Shown: in pieces, positions 2,424-46,061 of the stretch | Layout of the letters: each line of letters begins with the position of its first letter | Position numbering within the stretch: position 1 is the first letter of the stretch | Origin: Bartonella callosciuri | GTDB lineage: Bacteria > Pseudomonadota > Alphaproteobacteria > Rhizobiales > Rhizobiaceae | DNA: 64,000 nt | Direction: 5' to 3' | NCBI RefSeq assembly: GCF_014203215.1 | Contig: NZ_JACHIM010000003.1 | Span: forward strand, 28,082 to 92,081 | Notes under the pieces: model-generated | What the model was told of the DNA's origin: nothing | The model's input: only the letters and a program-made list of their open reading frames with translations | Databases searched by the model: none | Program-made: the position numbers and the translations under genes

Positions 2424-2580
2424 TGCTGCATAACAAACAAACCAAAATGGCATCCGAGAACGCATCGCGCCGTCGGATGTTGACCTCTGAGATCTCTTTA
2501 TACCCTTAACCGGGGTCTCAGTCGGTGGCTCCAAGTTAATTTGGTCACTGAAAGCTCGCTCTTTCAAACAATAAAACCCC
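2424..2580 (-). ncRNA. Structured RNA or leader upstream of ffh
   Basis: This interval between ffh and the carbonic anhydrase has no ORF but is dense in complementary segments. CATCCGA (2451-2457) pairs with TCGGATG (2473-2479), with further pairing inside. CTGAGA (2487-2492) pairs with TCTCAG (2516-2521) around a CCC/GGG stem. GACC (2482-2485) pairs with GGTC (2543-2546). CCAA/TTGG (2531-2544) and TGAAAG/CTTTCA (2549-2566) form small hairpins. The block is more GC-rich than other intergenic DNA here. A TTGACA-like box lies at 2586-2591 on the minus strand. I infer a cis-acting leader of ffh or a separate small RNA. The conserved SRP-RNA tetraloop domain is not evident, so I do not call it ffs. 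I have some memory of an alphaproteobacterial RNA motif upstream of ffh, but cannot confirm that this is it. Confidence 0.55.
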
Positions 2581-3548: not shown

Positions 3549-6500
3549 GTGTTAAAACAACAAACATCAGAGACAAAAAGTAATCAAAATAAAATAGAAC
3601 AAATTCTCTTTGCTCATACCGATAAAGAAGATATCAACTGTTACAAAAACAAAGAACTCCAAAAAGCCACAACCATTGCCATTGAAGCTTTTAATCTCCA
3701 TAAGGCAGGAAAAAGTATTATCTGTTTTGAACAAAATTTGACCCGCAACAACAAACCTATAACTGTTATCACACTCGTCAACGACAACAAACCCTTTCTC
3801 CTTGATTCTATTTTAAATATCTTTAATCAGCACAAAAACCACATTTATTTGATTGCACACCCCGTTCTTGATTGTGCCTCCGGACAACGCATCAGCCTTA
3901 TGCAAATCCACATCGATTTCTTAAACGAACAACAGATAAAAAAGCTCAAAGATGAACTTACCTTGGTCCTTGAGCAAGTTAAGTCCGCTGTGCAAGACTG
4001 GCAACCTATGCTGGAAGAAATTAGAAAGCATATCCATGCCTATCAAACAAGCCTCCCACCACACTACAAACAAGAAGGTGAAAAAGCCGTTGAACTTCTC
4101 AACTGGTTGATGGATGATAATTTCATCTTTCTTGGCATGCGCACTTATGACTTTATCAAAGATCAGGAACCTACAAAAGCCTTTAAAGCTAGCAATATTG
4201 AACTTGGTATTCTCACCGATGCTTCTATTCGTATTATTGGCGATGCACGTGTGGAAGAACCTCCCCAAGAGATTCTCTCCTTTATGGAAAGTGATGACCT
4301 GTTTATTGTAACGAAAGCCAATAGCCGCTCAAAAATTCACCGTTCTGTTTGGCTGGATTATATTGGTCTTAAAATCTTTGATAAAGAAGGCAAACTGTGT
4401 GGAGAATTACGCATTGTAGGATTGTTTACCTCTTCAGCTTATACCCGCTCTATTTTGCAAATTCCTTTCTTAAAAGAAAAAGCGCAAATCATCATTAAAC
4501 GCCTTGGATACAACCGGACTGACTATTCTGGAAAAGCACTGATAAGTGTTTTAGAAACCTATCCAAGAGATGAAATGTTTCGCTCCAACATTGACACATT
4601 GACAGAAAATGCCAAACTTATCCTGCAATTAGATGAACGTCCACGTTTGCGGGTGCTCGCCCATACGGATTCTTTTGGGCGCTTTGTTTCTATACTTTTC
4701 TACGTACCCCGTGACCAATACAGCAGCAATATTCGCGAAAAAGTTGGCGAATATTTTGTTGAACTTTACAAAGGTGATTTTTTTGAATCTTATCCGCTGT
4801 TTTTGGAAAGCAGCCTCATCCGTGTCCACTATATTATCCATCGCAAAGGGAGCGAAAGTGCTCCTTTTATCGAGCGTACCACACTTGAACAACATGTGCA
4901 TTCTATCACACGAAGTTGGGAAGAATGTGTTCAAACTATAGCTCTTAGTCGTAAAACAACCGAGCAACAAACGCATTTGGCTAGCCAATTTCCCAACAGC
5001 TATCGTGACTTATTTTCAGCAGAAGACGCCATTGAAGATGCCGGCCATATTTTAAGTCTTCATGATAAAAAAACGCTTTTCGTTACTTTTTATCATACAC
5101 ACAACAAAGACAAACAAAGCATTTCTCTCAGGCTCTTTCACCGCCACGAAGCACTCGCCCTTTCCAGACGTGTCCCACTCCTTGAAAATATGGGATTTCG
5201 GGTTATTGCTGAACAAACCCTTGAATTACCAGATGGCAAAGGACACTCTGTGTATCTTCATGATACGCAACTAGAAAGCGCTTTCCAACTGTATATTGAT
5301 TTCAACAAAAGCGGTAAAAAGCTCGCCGAAACATTCGAAGCCATTTGGGCCCAAGATGCTGATAATGATGCCTTTAATGCTTTAACCCAAACAGCCGGAC
5401 TTAATTGGCGCGAAATTGTCATTTTGCGCCATTATGGACGCTATCTTCAACAAGCTGGAATTCCTTATTCACAAGACCGCGTTGCTCAAACTTTAAACAC
5501 CTATCCTGACATTACTCAAGATCTTTATGCTTTGTTTCATTTGAAGTTTCATCAAAGCCATACAGAAGAAGAGCGAAAAAAAAACCAACCGGTTATTCAA
5601 CAACGCATTGAAGAAAAATTACAGAAAGTCTCAGGTTTAGATGATGATCTCATCTTACGCCGTTATCGTAATCTTATCGATGCGAGTTTACGAACTAATG
5701 CCTTTACCCCTCTTGCAAATGGTCATCCTCGGCGTATTTTAGCAACCAAATTGGATCCGCGCCAAATTGAAGGCTTACCTGAACCACGCCCTTATCGAGA
5801 AATTTTTGTTTATGGACCAGAAGTTGAAGGCGTTCATTTACGCTTTGGTCCTATCGCTCGCGGTGGAATCCGTTGGTCTGATCGTGCACTCGATTATCGC
5901 ACTGAAGTGCTCAGCTTAGTCAAAGCTCAACAAGTCAAAAATGCGGTTATTGTTCCTGTTGGCGCAAAAGGTGGATTTTATCCTCATCGCCTTCCCCAAA
6001 CCAGTGATCGTGCCGTAATCATAGAAGCTGCACGACAAGCTTATATTGACTTTATCACAGCTCTACTTTCCATCACCGACAATCTTGTTAACGGCAAAAT
6101 AAACGCTCCTCACGACATCATCTGCCATGATGAGCATGATCCTTATTTCGTTGTCGCTGCAGACAAAGGTACAGCAACCTTCTCTGATACAGCCAATGCA
6201 CTCAGCCAAGCGAACCACTTTTGGCTCGATGATGCTTTTGCCTCTGGAGGATCAGCAGGCTATGACCACAAAGCCATTGGGATTACCGCGAAAGGTGCAT
6301 GGGAAGCAGTTAAAAGACATTTTCGAGAATCTTTTAATCACGATATTCAAACAACCCCCTTCACCTGTGTCGGCGTTGGTGATATGTCCGGTGACGTTTT
6401 TGGTAATGGAATGCTTCTTTCCAAACAAACAAAGCTCATCGCCGCCTTTGATCACCGCGATATTTTTATTGATCCAGATCCAGACATAGCCGAAAGCTAT

Positions 6501-8237
6501 ACAGAACGTATGCGCCTCTTTAAACTTCCTCGTTCAAGTTGGCAAGATTACGATCAAAAAAAATTATCAAAGGGCGGTGGCATTTTCTCACGCACAATGA
6601 AAACAATTAAGCTTTCACCCGAGGCAGCACAAGCTATTGGTTTTGAGAAACAAATAGGAACACCCCTTGAAATTATCTCTGCACTTCTCAAAGCACCTGT
6701 TGATCTTTTATGGTTTGGTGGCATTGGTACATATATCCGTGCAACAACAGAAACTGATGCACAAGTAGGGGATCGTGCAAATGATACAATACGCATTACG
6801 GGTGAACAAGTTCGTGCAAAAGTCATCGGTGAAGGGGCTAATCTTGGCGTTACACAACGTGGTCGAATTGAATATGTCTTAAATGGTGGGCGATGCAATA
6901 CGGACGCCATTGACAATTCCGCAGGTGTTAATTGTTCAGATATTGAAGTTAATATCAAAATTGTTCTGGCATCAGCACTTCGTGCAAAAAAGCTTACCCA
7001 CGAAGCACGCAATGAACTCTTGAAAAAAATGACTCCACAAGTTGAGCAATTGGTCTTGCGCAACAATTATCTGCAACCTCTTGCTCTTTCTTTAGCTGAA
7101 AGCCAAAGCGTTGTTGATTTACCGTATCAAATACGCTTTATACATGATTTAGAACAGAAAAATCTTCTAGATCGTAGAATTGAAATTCTCCCTGATGAAC
7201 AAATTTTGCGGCAAAGAATAGCACAAGGTCAAGGGCTTATACGTCCAGAGCTTGCCGTCATTTTGGCATATGCTAAATTAACTCTAAAAGAAGAAATTGC
7301 CCACAGTCCCATTGTTGATGATGATTATTTTGACACAATTTTGTTGAATTATTTTCCAACTCAAATTCAGACAAACTTTACGAAAGAAATCATTCATCAT
7401 CAGTTGCGTCGCAATATTATTGCAACCATTATTGCCAACGATATTGTAAACCGTGGAGGGCCTACTTTTGTTAGTCGGTTACAAGATGCAACAGAACAAA
7501 AGATTGAAAATGTTATTCGCGTTTTCATCGCACTTCGCGATGGCTTTGAAATATTCCAATTGTCTGATCAGATTGATAAGCTTGATAATAAAATACCCGG
7601 TCTTGTCCAAAACAAATTCTACGCAGCCATTACGTCGATGCTCTTTGAAACAACAAATTGGGGGTTGCGTAATATGGATCCTTCTGTTCCATTAGAAGAA
7701 CTTGTGAAAACAATAAAGCAATCTCGTACTGTTATTGAAAAATTGCTTACACATTCCAATGATAAAGATATCAATAAAAAAATTAAAGAAAAAGCGATGC
7801 ATTATAGCGAAGAAGGCGCGCCAAAAGCTTTAGCAAAACAATTGGCTCTTTTGGAAGCTGCTCTAATAATTTGTGATATTTCTTTAATTGCTAAACAAAG
7901 CAATAGTGACCTTGTTAAAACCGCAGAAATCTATTTTTCACTTGCTCAAACCATGCGTATAAACCGCATTAATGAAGCAAGTCGGACAATTCCTGTACTT
8001 GATTATTATGATAGTATGGCTTTAAGCCAAGCTAAAGAAAATATTGCAGAAAGTTTACGGAAAATTGTTATGAAAATCCTGAAAAATTATGGAGCAAAAG
8101 AGGATTCATTCGCAATCTGGAGTAAAACAAAAGAAGATCAAATTCATAATGTAACAAACCGCATTGGTGCCCTCATTGAAAGCGATCTCAATATTTCTCG
8201 CTTTACTTTTGCAGCAAGCATGATTGCGCAACTTTAA
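3549..8237 (+). CDS. NAD-specific glutamate dehydrogenase, large (about 180 kDa) type
   Basis: Oxidatively deaminates glutamate to 2-oxoglutarate with NAD+, feeding amino-acid carbon into the TCA cycle, for example the SucAB complex encoded at 57-61 kb. The protein has 1562 residues, close to the usual size of this family (bacterial NAD-GDH domain). The long N-terminal part carries regulatory regions. The catalytic core lies roughly at 720-1200, with GPIARGGIRWSDRALDYRTEV, the KGGFYP lysine motif and a VGVGDMSGDVFGNGML nucleotide-binding stretch. The start is GTG with an AAGGGA ribosome binding site about ten bases upstream; a nearby ATG (3505) is in another frame and stops just after. There is no frameshift despite the great length, so it is under selection. 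Confidence 0.96.
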   Translation: MLKQQTSETKSNQNKIEQILFAHTDKEDINCYKNKELQKATTIAIEAFNLHKAGKSIICFEQNLTRNNKPITVITLVNDNKPFLLDSILNIFNQHKNHIYLIAHPVLDCASGQRISLMQIHIDFLNEQQIKKLKDELTLVLEQVKSAVQDWQPMLEEIRKHIHAYQTSLPPHYKQEGEKAVELLNWLMDDNFIFLGMRTYDFIKDQEPTKAFKASNIELGILTDASIRIIGDARVEEPPQEILSFMESDDLFIVTKANSRSKIHRSVWLDYIGLKIFDKEGKLCGELRIVGLFTSSAYTRSILQIPFLKEKAQIIIKRLGYNRTDYSGKALISVLETYPRDEMFRSNIDTLTENAKLILQLDERPRLRVLAHTDSFGRFVSILFYVPRDQYSSNIREKVGEYFVELYKGDFFESYPLFLESSLIRVHYIIHRKGSESAPFIERTTLEQHVHSITRSWEECVQTIALSRKTTEQQTHLASQFPNSYRDLFSAEDAIEDAGHILSLHDKKTLFVTFYHTHNKDKQSISLRLFHRHEALALSRRVPLLENMGFRVIAEQTLELPDGKGHSVYLHDTQLESAFQLYIDFNKSGKKLAETFEAIWAQDADNDAFNALTQTAGLNWREIVILRHYGRYLQQAGIPYSQDRVAQTLNTYPDITQDLYALFHLKFHQSHTEEERKKNQPVIQQRIEEKLQKVSGLDDDLILRRYRNLIDASLRTNAFTPLANGHPRRILATKLDPRQIEGLPEPRPYREIFVYGPEVEGVHLRFGPIARGGIRWSDRALDYRTEVLSLVKAQQVKNAVIVPVGAKGGFYPHRLPQTSDRAVIIEAARQAYIDFITALLSITDNLVNGKINAPHDIICHDEHDPYFVVAADKGTATFSDTANALSQANHFWLDDAFASGGSAGYDHKAIGITAKGAWEAVKRHFRESFNHDIQTTPFTCVGVGDMSGDVFGNGMLLSKQTKLIAAFDHRDIFIDPDPDIAESYTERMRLFKLPRSSWQDYDQKKLSKGGGIFSRTMKTIKLSPEAAQAIGFEKQIGTPLEIISALLKAPVDLLWFGGIGTYIRATTETDAQVGDRANDTIRITGEQVRAKVIGEGANLGVTQRGRIEYVLNGGRCNTDAIDNSAGVNCSDIEVNIKIVLASALRAKKLTHEARNELLKKMTPQVEQLVLRNNYLQPLALSLAESQSVVDLPYQIRFIHDLEQKNLLDRRIEILPDEQILRQRIAQGQGLIRPELAVILAYAKLTLKEEIAHSPIVDDDYFDTILLNYFPTQIQTNFTKEIIHHQLRRNIIATIIANDIVNRGGPTFVSRLQDATEQKIENVIRVFIALRDGFEIFQLSDQIDKLDNKIPGLVQNKFYAAITSMLFETTNWGLRNMDPSVPLEELVKTIKQSRTVIEKLLTHSNDKDINKKIKEKAMHYSEEGAPKALAKQLALLEAALIICDISLIAKQSNSDLVKTAEIYFSLAQTMRINRINEASRTIPVLDYYDSMALSQAKENIAESLRKIVMKILKNYGAKEDSFAIWSKTKEDQIHNVTNRIGALIESDLNISRFTFAASMIAQL

Positions 8238-8253
8238 AACACACCTTTCCAAC

Positions 8254-9345
8254 TCAAAGCGGTGCAAAACGACCAAGTTTAAAGAATTTTGTTTTGCCCG
8301 CCCATGGGTAATCAGCAAGGAAAGAACGGGAAAGCCATCTGCATTTTTAGGCATAGCGCTCAAAACAAAAAATAAAGCTTGCAGATTGTTAGCTTGCTCA
8401 GGAAACAAGCGCTGTAGAGTCTTAAGAAGCTCCATATGTTGAACAAAGACAAGTTCAAATTTTGCTGTCAAATATCCCTCATCATCAAAAGAAAAAGGCC
8501 CATTGACACGCAAATACCACCTGTATGAAAAATTAATTCACCGCGCTTTAAAAGTCTACTTTTCCCATATAAATGCTGTTTCCAATTGCCTTCTCTATTT
8601 TCAAACAGATGAGGTAAATCATTGAAAATCCATTTTAAGTTGCCATCAATTTTTGGAACATCAACAAAATAAGGTGTAAAAAACATCGAATAGTCAAAAT
8701 CATAGAAAGTTATATATCCCAATAAACTATTCTTCTTCTGTTTAAGATCAAAGTCGCAAAAATTCTGCCGTTATTTTTTTGGGCGCATAGTCTAACGGAG
8801 GCATAACCACATTCGAAGCATCTTTTAAAGGTGCTTGATTTCCAACATTTTCTTGTGTCGCCTTCTTGTTTTTCGTCTGTGATCCAAATTTTTCTTGAAG
8901 TTTCTAATCTTCAAGAGATGAGAAAATAGTGGAAATTTCAAGCCCTTCAGCCATCAATTTAAATGTTTTACCCGTTCTCCAATAAGGTTCTGTTTCAATC
9001 ACCAGATTGCGCCAGTGCTACACAATAGAAGTTTTTCCAGCAAAAACAATTGATGCAGGAGAATGAACATTAAATTCTACCCAATGAGATGCATAAATTG
9101 GTGCACCAACCGTCAACCCCCCCAGTTGATAAGGAAAGCACATGCAAAGGCCAAGCAAACTGAAATTGATCACAAGCAATACCGATACGTAACGGATAAC
9201 TATTCTTACGTAGATGCTCGCAACCAACGACCATATTCATGGACAGATGTCCTTGCGAATAAATCAGAAATATGGTCTTCTATTTTACGTGAAAAAAAAC
9301 CAGAGCGAACTATAAATGAGTATCAGAATAAAACACAATAGCCCA
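8254..9345 (-). pseudogene. Degraded DUF2125-family protein
   Basis: The stretch contains pieces of one protein in different frames of the minus strand. Near the 5' end are CEHLRKNSYPLRIGIACD and then PYQLGGLTVGAPIYASHW in a shifted frame. Next come a TAG stop and WRNLVIETEPYWRTGKTF. Around 8500-8720 the reading continues as FTPYFVDVPKIDGNLKW, and at 8470-8513 as VNGPFSFDDEGYLTAKFEL. The expected C-terminus KLGRFAPL and its TGA (8254-8256) are reached only after another frameshift near 8285. The order and motifs fit DUF2125, a conserved exported protein of Hyphomicrobiales. At least three frameshifts and several stops make it a clear pseudogene; the N-terminus is not recognisable. Confidence 0.8.
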
Positions 9346-32462: not shown

Positions 32463-32537
32463 GCGGGTGTAGCTCAGGGGTAGAGCACAACCTTGCCAAG
32501 GTTGGGGTCGTGGGTTCGAATCCCATCGCCCGCTCCA
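32463..32537 (+). tRNA. tRNA-Gly (anticodon GCC)
   Basis: Cloverleaf of 75 nt including an encoded CCA. The acceptor GCGGGTG pairs with CGCCCGC. The anticodon arm CCTTGCCAAGG presents GCC, and the T arm has GGGTTCGAATCCC. It reads GGC and GGU glycine codons. The gene stands alone, with the decayed ABC operon on one side and a 2.4-kb gene-poor stretch on the other. Confidence 0.97.
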
Positions 32538-41901: not shown

Positions 41902-42840
41902 TTACCCAGCCTTTTTCTCATCGGCAAGCGGATGATGCTCGTTAACTAAACGATAAAGACCTGCTTCCAACACATGTGTATAAATCTGAGTGGTAGCAAT
42001 ATCAGAATGACCTAACAAATGCTGAACTGCACGCAAATCAGCACCATTTTGCAAAAGATGACTAGCAAAAGCATGACGCAACACATGAGGAGAAAATCTA
42101 CTACTTTTTATTCCTGCTCTTCTGGCAAGACTTTTCAACTCCCGTGCAACAACTTGTCGAGCAATATACCCTGTCTCTGAACGTGCAGGAAAAAGATAAA
42201 GACTTGCTGCATCCTTTCCTTGATTTCGCAAATCTAACCACTGTGCAAGTACTTGGCATGCTTTTTTTGATAAGAGGACCATTCGTTCTTTTTTGCCCTT
42301 ACCGCGAACCAAGATACTATACTCTTTCCCCCGGACAGCCTGCACTGGAAGACTCACTAACTCACTAATACGTAGTCCTGTTGCGTAAAGCATTTCAGTC
42401 AACAATTGAAGACGCAATGCACGAAAATGATCCTTTGACCCATAATCTGCTTGATTCACTTCTAACTGCGCCAAATCAAGCAATTTTATCACGTCATCTT
42501 CACCGATGATTTTCGGCAAAGAACGCCCCTGACGAGGAGCATCAATATCATGGGAAGGATCATCTTCTCGCAACCCCTCTGCATAAAGAAATTGATAAAA
42601 CTGACGCAAAGTTGATAAACGGCGCGCTTGCGAAGACGCCGCAAAACTAAGAGTGTGCATAAGCGACAAAAGACCAATTAAATCTTCTTTTTGCGCTGAA
42701 AAAAGTGAAACAGAGTGCGAAGATAATTCGTCTTGTGCCCACTGCAAATCATGCTGATAAGCTGCAAGCGTGTGTGCAGAAGCTCCTCGCTCAGCACTCA
42801 TCATCTCAAGAAAACGATCTATCACAGTATCACTTTTCAT
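41902..42840 (-). CDS. xerD: Site-specific tyrosine recombinase XerD
   Basis: Chromosome-dimer resolution recombinase acting at dif with XerC. 312 residues: an N-terminal SAM-like core-binding domain (1-100) and a catalytic domain. The catalytic residues are visible: Arg in YATGLRISEL, Lys in RGKGKKERMV, His-x-x-Arg in PHVLRHAFASHLL, and His in LLGHSDIATTQIYTHV with the nucleophile Tyr in IYTH. It follows a small membrane-protein gene by one base, the normal aroK/xerD neighbourhood in Hyphomicrobiales. XerC versus XerD is chosen by that context. Confidence 0.92.
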   Translation of the reverse strand: MKSDTVIDRFLEMMSAERGASAHTLAAYQHDLQWAQDELSSHSVSLFSAQKEDLIGLLSLMHTLSFAASSQARRLSTLRQFYQFLYAEGLREDDPSHDIDAPRQGRSLPKIIGEDDVIKLLDLAQLEVNQADYGSKDHFRALRLQLLTEMLYATGLRISELVSLPVQAVRGKEYSILVRGKGKKERMVLLSKKACQVLAQWLDLRNQGKDAASLYLFPARSETGYIARQVVARELKSLARRAGIKSSRFSPHVLRHAFASHLLQNGADLRAVQHLLGHSDIATTQIYTHVLEAGLYRLVNEHHPLADEKKAG

Positions 42841-43097: not shown

Positions 43098-43733
43098 ATG
43101 AAAAATAATCGGCCTAAACATCTCCCAATGCCACAGATAAAAAATCAACTCTTATCGTCTCTTGATAAACGAGCACTTGCATTCGTTGGTATGATGGGTG
43201 CAGGCAAATCAGTAATCGGAAAACGCGTTGCCACAATGCTCCGTTTACCCTTTTATGATTCCGATGAGGAAATTGAAAAAGCTTCAAAAATGACCATCAC
43301 TGAACTCTTTAAAATTTATGGTGAGCCTGAATTCCGTGCTCTTGAACAGCGTGTTGTCTTAAACCTCATAAAAAAAAGTCCTCTTGTTTTGGCAACAGGC
43401 GGTGGTGCCTACACAAATCCAGATATCCGAAAAGCCATTCATCAAAATGGAATATCTATTTGGCTCAACGTTGATCTTGATATCCTCATGGAACGTGTCT
43501 CAAAGAACTCAACGCGCCCTCTCCTTCAAACAGAAAACCCGAAAGCAACCATGGAACAGCTCATAGCACAGCGTTATCCTCTCTATGCAAAGGCAAATTT
43601 AACAATTAAAATTCATAAAGAAAGCCCCCATACCATAGCAAAAAATGTCATACGATCTGTAAAGCACTACTTCGATACAGAAAATAACAACGATAGGAAT
43701 AATAAGCATGCATGCCAAAACCGTTACTGTTAA
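43098..43733 (+). CDS. aroK: Shikimate kinase
   Basis: Phosphorylates shikimate at the 3-hydroxyl with ATP. The 211-residue protein has the P-loop GMMGAGKS at 31-38, DSDEEIE (about 52), FRALEQRVV and [11 protein letters not shown], the shikimate-binding motifs. RPLLQ and RYPLYAKA form the lid and C-terminal helix. The N-terminus is about 15 residues longer than in E. coli AroK, as is common in Hyphomicrobiales. The stop overlaps the start of aroB by 26 bases, so translation is probably coupled. Confidence 0.95.
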
Positions 43734-44841
43734 ACTGGATAAACACTGTTACGATATCATCATTGGCCCAGATCTTATTACACAAGCAGCTTCACAGATT
43801 AAGCATTCTCTTCACCAAAAAGATTTTCATCAAATGCGTGTGGCACTTATTACAGATGCGAATATTGCATCCCTCCATTTGGATACATTAGAGGCAGAAT
43901 TAACAAAAAATAAAATTCATACGGTTCCAATTGTTGTCGAAGCAGGAGAACAGTCAAAATCATTTTCAACTTTGCAAACTGTTATAGATAAAATTCTCGC
44001 TACACGTTTAGAAAGAGGCGACTGTGTTATTGCTTTTGGTGGTGGTGTCATTGGTGACTTAGGAGGATTTGCTGCAAGCATCATACGGCGCGGTATGAAT
44101 TTCATTCAAATGCCCACAACGTTACTTGCACAAATTGACTCCTCTGTTGGTGGAAAAACTGGAATCAATAGTCAATATGGCAAAAATCTTATTGGTACTT
44201 TTTATCAACCACGATGTGTTATTTCTGATACTTGTCTCCTTGATACACTGCCATTGCGAGAGTTTCGCGCCGGTTATGCAGAAATGGTCAAATATGGTCT
44301 CATTAACCAGCCTGATTTCTTTGAATGGCTTGAAAAAAACGGGCAAAAAGTTTTTTCCAATGGCTCAATACGAACAGAAGCCATTATCCGTTCATGCCAA
44401 TTTAAAGCCGATATTGTAGCACGGGATGAACACGAAACAGGGGAACGTGCACTCTTAAACCTTGGTCATACATTTGGACATATGCTTGAAACAGCAACTA
44501 TTTATGACTCAAACCGTTTAATCCATGGGGAAGCTGTAGCAATTGGAATGATTCTAGCCCACCAACTCTCTGCTCAACTGAATTTAATAAACTCTACACT
44601 CACACATCGTATTGAAACTCACTTTAAAGCAGTAGGATTGCCTACACAACTAAAAGATATCCCGGGCACACTACCAGATGCTGAAACGCTGATGACTCTC
44701 ATTGCTCAAGATAAAAAAGTTTCGCAAAACAACCTAACTTTTATTTTAACACGTGGACTTGGACAATCATTTATTGCAAAAAATATTTCATCAAACACAA
44801 TTTTGACCTTTTTGGAACAGAAATTAGCAGAAATTCGTTAA
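43708..44841 (+). CDS. aroB: 3-Dehydroquinate synthase
   Basis: Second enzyme of the shikimate pathway, using NAD+ and a divalent metal. 377 residues; [17 protein letters not shown] (about 72), [20 protein letters not shown] (about 112), [17 protein letters not shown] and [10 protein letters not shown] (metal ligand His) are present, with HGEAVAIGM. The AGGA site is six bases before ATG 43708. It follows aroK in an overlapping pair. The gene that often follows (a hemolysin-like CBS protein) is not present; a split tRNA gene follows instead. Confidence 0.96.
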
Positions 44842-44901: not shown

Positions 44902-45204
44902 GTCTGCGTAGCTCAGTAGGATAGAGCACAGGATTCCTAAAGAAATTGGGCGCCTTAAGGAGAAATCCTCAAAGTGGATCTGCTCAAATTCGGGGAAAGC
45001 TTCATAGGAGACTATATGCCAATCCCGAACCAAGTCTCTCTTCAAAGGAGAGAAAGGTGTAGAGACTGAACGGGCAGCACCTAAAAAGCATAAGCTTTAC
45101 GGTGAAGAGACAGTCCAGACCACGAACAGTTTTTAAAGCTGGCGATGAAAGTCGAAGTGGTATGAATCCTGGGGTCGCAGGTTCGAATCCTGCCGTAGAC
45201 ACCA
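44902..45204 (+). tRNA. tRNA-Arg (CCU) interrupted by a group I intron
   Basis: Joining 44902-44938 to 45165-45204 gives a complete 77-nt cloverleaf: acceptor GTCTGCG with CGTAGAC, an anticodon stem CAGGA/TCCTG around TTCCTAA, T arm with GGTTCGAATCC, and encoded ACCA. The anticodon CCU is complete at the end of the first exon, and the insertion lies directly after U36. It would read AGG codons. The mature tRNA depends on removal of the 226-nt insert. A single-piece tRNA scan would miss this gene. Confidence 0.93.
44939..45164 (+). ncRNA. Group I intron in tRNA-Arg(CCU)
   Basis: A 226-base insert without an ORF. It follows a U at the 5' junction and ends in G, the group I rule. Core elements can be found. 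A GAAA-capped hairpin (AGGA/TCCT) lies near 44958-44969. P4-like TTCGGG (44989-44994) pairs with CCCGAA (45024-45029). A CTCTC/GAGAG stem lies at 45036-45052, AAAGC/GCTTT at about 45083-45099, and P7 is GACTG (45064-45068) with CAGTC (45111-45115). The R-like GAGACTGAACGGGCAG and S-like AAGAGACAGTCCAGA are typical of small bacterial tRNA introns. A similar intron is known in tRNA-Arg(CCU) of Agrobacterium. It is probably self-splicing. Confidence 0.92.
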
Positions 45205-45255: not shown

Positions 45256-45651
45256 ATGAAAAAAACTCTACATATTTTAGGATTTTTGGCCGCTTCAAGT
45301 CTATCACTCTTTAGCTCAGATAATGCCTTGGCCGGTTCTTTAAGCTTTGAGGTACCAGACAATCCAGAACCAACAACAAAGATCATTACCTATCAATGTG
45401 ATACAGGAATAAGTAAAGAGCGTGTTGAAGCAACTTATCTCAAAGCTGATAATATTTCATTGGTTGATTTCAAATGGCAAGGTGATCGTGTCATTGCTGC
45501 GAATGTCATCTCTTCCACCGGAACAAAATATGCAGGAGCCAATTATATCTGGTGGGAGACTAACAATGAAATCACACTTTATGATCTTGCCCATGACCCA
45601 GAAAAGAAAAAACCTATCCTCTGTAAGGATGAATCAATATTATTATTCTAG
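45256..45651 (+). CDS. MliC-like periplasmic protein, first copy
   Basis: A 131-residue exported protein. The signal peptide (about 1-26, ending ALA-G) is followed by a compact beta domain with YQCDTG, then YIWWETNNEITLYDL and the second Cys in PILCKDE. This is the shape of the membrane-bound lysozyme inhibitor (MliC) family, which blocks c-type lysozyme in the periplasm. The assignment rests on motif layout, and inhibition is an inference. It is 52 bases downstream of the split tRNA and 17 bases before its paralogue. Confidence 0.75.
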   Translation: MKKTLHILGFLAASSLSLFSSDNALAGSLSFEVPDNPEPTTKIITYQCDTGISKERVEATYLKADNISLVDFKWQGDRVIAANVISSTGTKYAGANYIWWETNNEITLYDLAHDPEKKKPILCKDESILLF

Positions 45652-45668
45652 ATAACGAAGGAAATATC

Positions 45669-46061
45669 ATGAAAAAAACTTCTTTTACCGTACAATTTCT
45701 CACCACTTTAAGTTTATCACTCCTCGGCTTAACCAGCGCTTTCGCAAGCTCTTTAGTCATTGAGGTCCCAGATGATCCAGAACCAACAATTCAAACCATT
45801 GCTTATCAATGTGATATGGGAACAAGTAAAGAGCGTTTTGAAGCAACCTATCATAATGCTGGTACTATTTCGCTCGTTGATCTGAAATGGAAAGGGAAGC
45901 GCATGATCGGTTCCAATGTCATTGCTGCTTCAGGAGCGAAATATGTAGGAGGGCCATATATCTGGTGGACACAAAAAAACGAAGCCACATTTTATGATCT
46001 CATGAATGATCCGAATGAGGAAAAGCCCATTAACTGTGTAGAAGAACAAGGCACAGAATAA
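45669..46061 (+). CDS. MliC-like periplasmic protein, second copy
   Basis: A 130-residue paralogue of the preceding gene: the same signal peptide type (cleavage near FAS-S), EVPDDPEPTIQTIAYQCDMG, ASGAKYVGGPYIWWTQKNEATFYDL and a second cysteine in PINCVEE. The two proteins share most residues in the mature domain, so a tandem duplication with moderate divergence is clear. The two genes are separated by 17 bases and likely share a transcript ending in the hairpin at 46088-46173. A lysozyme-inhibitor role is inferred as for the first copy. Confidence 0.75.
   Translation: MKKTSFTVQFLTTLSLSLLGLTSAFASSLVIEVPDDPEPTIQTIAYQCDMGTSKERFEATYHNAGTISLVDLKWKGKRMIGSNVIAASGAKYVGGPYIWWTQKNEATFYDLMNDPNEEKPINCVEEQGTE

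Follow-up and report, generated by a model that had tools for sequence, protein, structure and literature searches.

Whether a tRNA gene interrupted in its anticodon loop can still supply its tRNA, and how such an interruption came to be there, is the question raised by a 303-nt locus of Bartonella callosciuri. The locus lies within the window, the whole stretch of 64,000 nucleotides that was analysed. A sequence-only reading had placed there a tRNA-Arg(CCU) gene at 44902-45204, whose halves pair only once a 226-nt group I intron (44939-45164), following U36 and ending in G, is removed. ARAGORN with introns allowed returned tRNA-Arg(cct) of 303 nt with a 226-nt intron at tRNA position 38, in agreement with these borders to the base. 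The exons, joined in a script, were typed by the same program as a standard 77-nt tRNA-Arg(CCU) with an encoded CCA. The Rfam group I intron model RF00028 matched window positions 44926-45137 at 54.7 bits (E 4e-11), just 4.7 bits above its curated cut-off of 50 bits, and this was the sole RF00028 match in the B. callosciuri genome. Plain ARAGORN, run on the window, did not report the split gene and found only a tRNA-Gly at 32463, bearing out the expectation that standard scans would easily miss it. B. callosciuri therefore gains one tRNA gene absent from plain tRNA scans, together with the reason for its absence. The insert is almost certainly a small self-splicing group I intron lacking an open reading frame, a member of the alphaproteobacterial tRNA-Arg(CCU) family and orthologous to BbgpI of Bartonella bacilliformis. 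Elsewhere in the window, the Rfam ffh sRNA family matched at 2443-2494 (-) with 54.9 bits.

Table 1. Positions (window coordinates) of the split tRNA-Arg(CCU) gene, its upstream neighbour and the helices of the predicted intron fold; counts out of 50 refer to aligned homologues.
Feature	Position	Strand	Basis and remarks
aroB-like ORF, upstream neighbour	43708..44841	+	ORF list; relative in same locus as split tRNA in 60/67 Bartonella loci (duplicates counted)
tRNA-Arg(CCU) gene including intron	44902..45204	+	ARAGORN with introns allowed and on joined exons; CCA encoded at 45202-45204
5' exon, last base U36 of anticodon	44902..44938	+	ARAGORN; identical site in 71/71 Bartonella genomes
Group I intron, 226 nt	44939..45164	+	RF00028, 54.7 bits; covariation
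3' exon, first base A37	45165..45204	+	ARAGORN
P1	44936-44940/44946-44950	+	internal guide; U36.G wobble at 5' splice site; C-G, C-G, U.G unchanged in 50/50
Possible P10 strand	44945..44947	+	can pair with 3' exon 45165-45167; read from sequence
P2 with GAAA loop	44951..44976	+	both-sided changes in 9/9 pairs; two inner pairs not formed in 21/50 and 25/50
P3	44980-44985/45072-45077	+	100% of cells paired; both-sided changes in 3/6 pairs
P4	44989-44994/45024-45029	+	encloses P5; covariation alignment; outermost pair unpaired in 28/50
P5	44999-45000/45018-45019; extension 45004-45007/45012-45015	+	P5 paired in every sequence; extension 72% paired
P6	45030-45031/45056-45057	+	
P6a	45035-45042/45046-45053	+	both-sided changes in 7/7 main-helix pairs; innermost pair unpaired in 13/22
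P7	45064-45068/45111-45115	+	binds guanosine in this family; forms a pseudoknot with P3; 100% of cells paired, 50/50
P8	45078-45081/45101-45104; distal 45085-45089/45094-45098	+	core-side inner part always paired; first distal pair unpaired in 30/50
P9	45120-45123/45157-45160	+	with P9a 45127-45132/45136-45141
P9b, GAAA loop	45143-45146/45151-45154	+	paired in every sequence
Terminal guanosine of intron	45164	+	G in 71/71 Bartonella introns and 50/50 homologues

A second, uninterrupted copy elsewhere in the genome had been named as one of the findings that would speak against an active split gene. The whole-genome search yielded 38 other tRNA genes, all typed by ARAGORN, and a CCU anticodon was found in none of these 38 in the B. 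callosciuri draft (36 contigs). A search of the genome with the joined exons gave 100% identity for the two halves alone, with other tRNAs lower. Apart from the split gene, no tRNA-Arg(CCU) was thus found in the draft. Intact arginine tRNAs with anticodons UCU, CCG and ACG were typed by ARAGORN, and tRNA-Arg(UCU) may read AGG by wobble; because of this tRNA, the earlier description of the split gene as essential is left undemonstrated. Three tRNAs with a CAU anticodon are expected, the initiator, the elongator and Ile2. Just two were found in B. callosciuri, the third perhaps missing through an assembly gap. Around the split gene, a consensus promoter scan gave 3 sites (chance expectation 1.4 +/- 1.3), and no terminator was found on scanning for one. 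Just 3' of the tRNA lie two tandem, similar small ORFs (45256-45651 and 45669-46061) whose products, judged by eye, look secreted; 57 of 67 Bartonella loci and 0 of 118 others contain a relative of the first ORF (duplicates counted).

To describe the anatomy of the insert, a fold comprising P1 to P9 with a P3/P7 pseudoknot was written from the window sequence. The predicted P1 pairs CCUAA with UUGGG and places a U.G at the 5' splice site, a pair kept in all 50 homologues. Three base pairs of P10 can be drawn here, the third being lost where the exon starts AAA, as in Methylobacterium-type exons. The covariation alignment consisted of 50 of the 139 tree introns described below, chosen by k-mer distance and extended by 8 and 6 exon bases; one row (L152) contains a run of N. 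This alignment was not fitted to the structure, yet the structure came from one of its rows. Over the 50 homologues, a standard pair was present in 92.0% of 3,365 cells and both-sided changes occurred in 45 of the 70 pairs. Column shuffles averaged 79.9% paired cells and 33.1 both-sided pairs, with 0 of 500 as high on either measure, and sliding the helices along the alignment lowered pairing to 31-45%. P3, P5, P7, the inner part of P8 beside the core and P9b were always paired, and the weak pairs of the drawn fold are peripheral apart from the outermost pair of P4. The predicted P1-P9 fold with its P3/P7 pseudoknot is supported by this covariation. The GAAA loops that close P2 and P9b would be compatible with subgroup IC3, a name used for tRNA introns.

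The same core bears on how the insert leaves the transcript. Archaeal tRNA introns often lie in the anticodon loop, the position also occupied by this insert, so that removal by a protein tRNA-splicing endonuclease, archaeal style and without RNA catalysis, has to be weighed. That route would not account for a full group I core with covariation, and the B. bacilliformis orthologue self-splices in vitro, as reported (PMC7717549); the probability of an endonuclease route is negligible.

RNA catalysis would instead proceed along the usual group I path. Once transcribed, the intron would fold, and P1 would pair the CCU at the end of the 5' exon with the GGG of the guide, so that the U.G wobble falls at the 5' splice site. 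Attack after U36 would come from an external guanosine bound in P7, and the freed 5' exon would then attack after the terminal G, perhaps helped by a short P10, joining the exons into tRNA-Arg(CCU). The start by an external guanosine in P7 and the marking of the 3' splice site by a terminal G are established steps of group I introns and would apply equally here. Anatomy, covariation, insertion site and presence throughout the examined Bartonella genomes were observed directly in this work; that the B. callosciuri copy splices in the cell we infer from the B. bacilliformis orthologue.

The comparison of the same site in other Bartonella genomes, a check proposed in the sequence-only reading, was performed with ARAGORN on 71 genomes (loci L001-L031, L081, L084, L085 and L256-L292), one of which, B. 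tamiae, now carries the NCBI genus name Attibartonella. All 71 hold an intron at the same site of tRNA-Arg(CCU), with lengths from 220 to 278 nt. RF00028 matched 70 of them, 60 over the cut-off and 10 below; the one genome missed (G002) nevertheless carries the split gene. The AATTGGG guide, P4, both strands of P7 and the final G are intact in every one of the 71 introns. In 70 of them the P3 junction motif is unaltered too; the remaining one has a C to U change that still pairs as U.G. Across these introns the mean majority-letter fraction was 0.96-1.00 in core segments versus 0.71-0.83 in peripheral parts. A near-invariant core with a variable periphery is the sequence pattern expected of a working ribozyme. 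No homing endonuclease gene was found in the intron, and in agreement with the original description of an insert free of open reading frames, no ATG-started open stretch in the 71 Bartonella introns exceeded 65 aa, the length of the longest.

These observations also weigh on a different fate for the locus, in which the intron has decayed, the insert is no longer spliced, the gene is a pseudogene and AGG is read by tRNA-Arg(UCU). The latter tRNA is indeed present and intact, and AGG is rare, accounting for 22 of the 13,741 codons in mechanically called ATG frames (200 aa or longer) of the window. However, the exons make a standard tRNA, the catalytic parts are intact, the core is conserved over 71 genomes and the B. 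bacilliformis orthologue splices (PMC7717549). Decay is accordingly given a very low probability, and a splicing intron remains the preferred reading.

To place the Bartonella introns among their relatives, 151 genomes sampled evenly across the family were searched; they cover 109 genera and include two Bartonella genomes. The intron-exon junction pattern was present in 21 of the 151 genomes and 16 of the 109 genera; reading the locus confirmed 20 of the 21, with L298 (G149) ambiguous. The pattern of an intact tRNA-Arg(CCU) was present in 101 genomes and 75 genera, a count that rests on the pattern alone, although ARAGORN typed 20 similar order-level loci as Arg(CCU) in 19 cases and as Arg(UCU) in one. 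Split and intact patterns never occurred together (0/151), and 29 of the 151 genomes showed neither, as judged from inspection of the two lists. RF00028 alone identified 17 of the 151 genomes; the intron lies in tRNA-Arg(CCU) in the 2 Bartonella and 8 others, and in tRNA-Leu(UAA) in the remaining 7.

A wider draw from the order comprised 347 genomes, 331 of them outside the family of Bartonella. Among the latter, at least 9 hold a confirmed split tRNA-Arg(CCU), 7 of these within one genus. The junction pattern, allowing up to 2 mismatches, was found in 55 of the 347 genomes; of 30 loci that were read, 7 were split tRNA-Arg(CCU) genes and 23 were not, and two further genomes (G372 and G534) are also split. 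The intact-gene pattern matched at least 176 of the 347 genomes but also other arginine tRNAs, and this count was not used. Named records with the intron include at least Agrobacterium, Rhizobium, Neorhizobium, Phyllobacterium, Mesorhizobium, Methylobacterium, Aureimonas, Magnetospirillum, Acidocella, Roseomonas and Bombella. A readable split tRNA-Arg(CCU) was present in 114 of at least 118 named loci, the exceptions being L169, L205, L207 and L223. From these surveys it follows that the intron family spans several alphaproteobacterial orders, is patchy in the family of Bartonella and is present in every Bartonella genome examined. The distribution had been called sporadic beforehand, a description that holds for the wider family, in which intact genes outnumber split ones, but does not hold within Bartonella. 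Because of this universal presence against the patchiness in related genera, and the lack of a homing gene, the intron appears to be tolerated across Bartonella. Whether a self-splicing intron is costly or useful to a single-copy tRNA thereby becomes testable genus-wide.

The descent of the intron was examined in a tree of 139 introns out of 224 extracted, consisting of 37 Bartonella rows and 102 others, with B. tamiae counted among the others; identical rows and most Bartonella genomes without a species name were left out. The 37 Bartonella rows and B. tamiae fell in a starred group of 48 rows together with some other Rhizobiaceae and Bombella (100/99; bootstrap unsettled). A second tree had 52 rows, of which 42 were Arg introns selected by hand and 10 were Leu introns. 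Grouping all Bartonella introns, B. tamiae among them, in one clade was not rejected (p-AU 0.526). It stays undemonstrated, because introns of other Rhizobiaceae fall inside Bartonella in the free trees, as does Bombella in one tree. Vertical descent within Bartonella is, most simply, how the sequences would be read, short of proof. The intron would then persist as a tolerated element that is passed on within the genus and has no means of moving by itself. The upstream ORF, presumably aroB for 3-dehydroquinate synthase, adds the 60 of 67 Bartonella loci noted in Table 1 versus 14 of 118 other loci, counts that include duplicates and are limited by locus length. This neighbourhood supports orthology of the tRNA gene and is silent on the age of the intron.

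Bombella, a genus of the bee gut (L174, L191, L220, L221), carries its tRNA-Arg(CCU) intron on a long branch. A transfer between Bombella and Bartonella as bee-gut bacteria would have been suggested by the 139-row tree; this candidate was set aside, the Bombella branch measuring 0.77 and being placed elsewhere in the 52-row tree. A tree holding Bartonella together without Bombella had slightly higher likelihood, and the position of Bombella is unstable, so that an exchange is at most a possible reading.

The intron could alternatively have arrived in B. callosciuri recently and independently, by horizontal transfer and not by inheritance within Bartonella. Such an arrival would suit an intron that is patchy in the wider family, that has core relatives in 14 viral contigs and whose Bombella counterparts stand among the Bartonella introns in one tree. 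It sits poorly with the occupation of one site in all 71 Bartonella genomes, and the five tree rows nearest to the B. callosciuri copy are all Bartonella introns. The long Bombella branch moves elsewhere in the thinner tree, and the annotated phage collection gave 0 matches to the intron among 50,697 records. A recent arrival is considered very unlikely, and inheritance within Bartonella is retained as the simplest account.

Beyond Bartonella, related introns were found in other tRNAs and on mobile DNA. Group I introns of tRNA-Leu(UAA), present in 7 of the 151 family genomes (L065, L066, L067, L069, L072, L074, L075), have a related core and were also read on plasmids and viral contigs; unlike the present intron, they occupy another tRNA at another site, by our reading after the first base of the anticodon. 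In the 52-row tree, 9 of the 10 tRNA-Leu(UAA) introns formed one starred group, with L075 as a long branch elsewhere. Among the 14 viral contigs with the intron core pattern, the intron lies in or among tRNA genes in 7 (L318, L320, L323, L325, L326, L328, L329). Among the intron-bearing tRNAs of L320, L323, L325, L326, L328 and L329 are Leu(UAA) and Arg(UCU); several of these tRNAs belong to tRNA clusters, and L320, a viral contig of 280,913 bases, has two RF00028 matches within 1 kb. L318 holds a split tRNA-Arg(CCU) of the same family as that of the window on an 18,519-base contig that is classed as viral but may be of bacterial origin. ARAGORN found no tRNA around the core pattern in the other 7 (L316, L317, L319, L321, L322, L324, L327), and their flanks look coding; in L316, RF00028 scored 71.9 bits and an open frame at 7946-8332 (-) runs into the 5' end of the intron.

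A blastn search with the window gene matched 1,271 of 72,556 plasmid records at 60-80% identity. No plasmid record covered 80% of the query, and in the 15 matches listed the intron part alone was covered. Plasmid loci extracted were L330 at about 3948-4246 (pCTX-M3), L331 (LR890662.1), and L332 and L333 at 2501-2799. In two plasmid records that were read, the match sits in a putative tRNA-Leu(UAA) less than 1 kb upstream of aac(3)-IId; ARAGORN types the plasmid gene as tRNA-Stop(tta) with a shifted border. RF00028 is below its cut-off on the plasmid intron, and its identity as a group I intron thus rests on similarity to the tRNA-Arg(CCU) intron family. RNA genes are not listed in the plasmid collection, so annotation was checked in RefSeq: two E. 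coli plasmids carry no annotated feature at the putative split tRNA-Leu(UAA) and have a gene for an AAA-family ATPase between it and aac(3)-IId. A direct search recovered 80% or more of the plasmid element from 1,257 of 72,556 plasmid records and from 624 of 5,426 E. coli genomes, in both cases nearly always at 99% identity or above; 935 of the 1,280 plasmid records matched by the direct search are predicted to be conjugative. By tree path, the nearest intron is the chromosomal tRNA-Leu(UAA) intron L066, and the top identity is 78%, to the Arg(CCU) intron L314. A full-text literature search found no paper joining the terms of this plasmid find, which is weak evidence of absence.

Relatives of the intron occur in tRNA-Leu(UAA), in viral tRNA clusters, apparently in viral protein genes and, in a putative tRNA-Leu(UAA), on about 1,260 mostly predicted-conjugative plasmid records. 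It may tentatively be proposed, with the balance still tilting against it, that the intron of Bartonella is a quiescent, vertically inherited offshoot of a tRNA-intron lineage still moving elsewhere, carried by whole tRNA genes on phages and plasmids and not by homing endonucleases. If true, phage- and plasmid-borne tRNA genes would explain the patchy distribution of the intron.

The closest known system is BbgpI, a group I intron in tRNA-Arg(CCU) of B. bacilliformis (Wachter et al. 2020, PMC7717549). In that report, BbgpI was located by 5' RACE, its splicing in vivo was established by PCR on cDNA, self-splicing was obtained in vitro and the host tRNA was found to be unannotated. Since that report already covers the Bartonella intron, its splicing and the unannotated tRNA, the Bartonella intron is known, and its genus-wide presence is added detail. 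Among the papers listed by a literature search, none further on the tRNA-Arg(CCU) intron family was found beyond PMC7717549. Bartonella genome G007 carries its split gene at 42403-42709, which nearly coincides with the published locus c42404-42711 (PMC7717549), and is therefore probably either the strain of that report or almost identical to it. BbgpI and the B. callosciuri intron share the host gene, the site, the kind of fold and a gene missed by annotation, and the G007 intron is 88.3% identical to that of the window over 223 aligned bases with 10 gap columns. They differ in length (230 nt in G007, 226 nt in B. callosciuri), and the B. callosciuri copy is known from sequence alone. Further afield, tRNA-Arg(CCU) introns were described in Agrobacterium and other alphaproteobacteria (Reinhold-Hurek and Shub 1992; Paquin et al. 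1999; both as cited in PMC7717549). The loci of Agrobacterium, Rhizobium, Methylobacterium, Aureimonas, Acetobacteraceae and Magnetospirillum read in this work share the insertion site and core with the B. callosciuri intron. Their distribution is called sporadic in the title of Paquin et al. 1999 (as cited in PMC7717549), whereas the intron occupies this site in every Bartonella genome examined.
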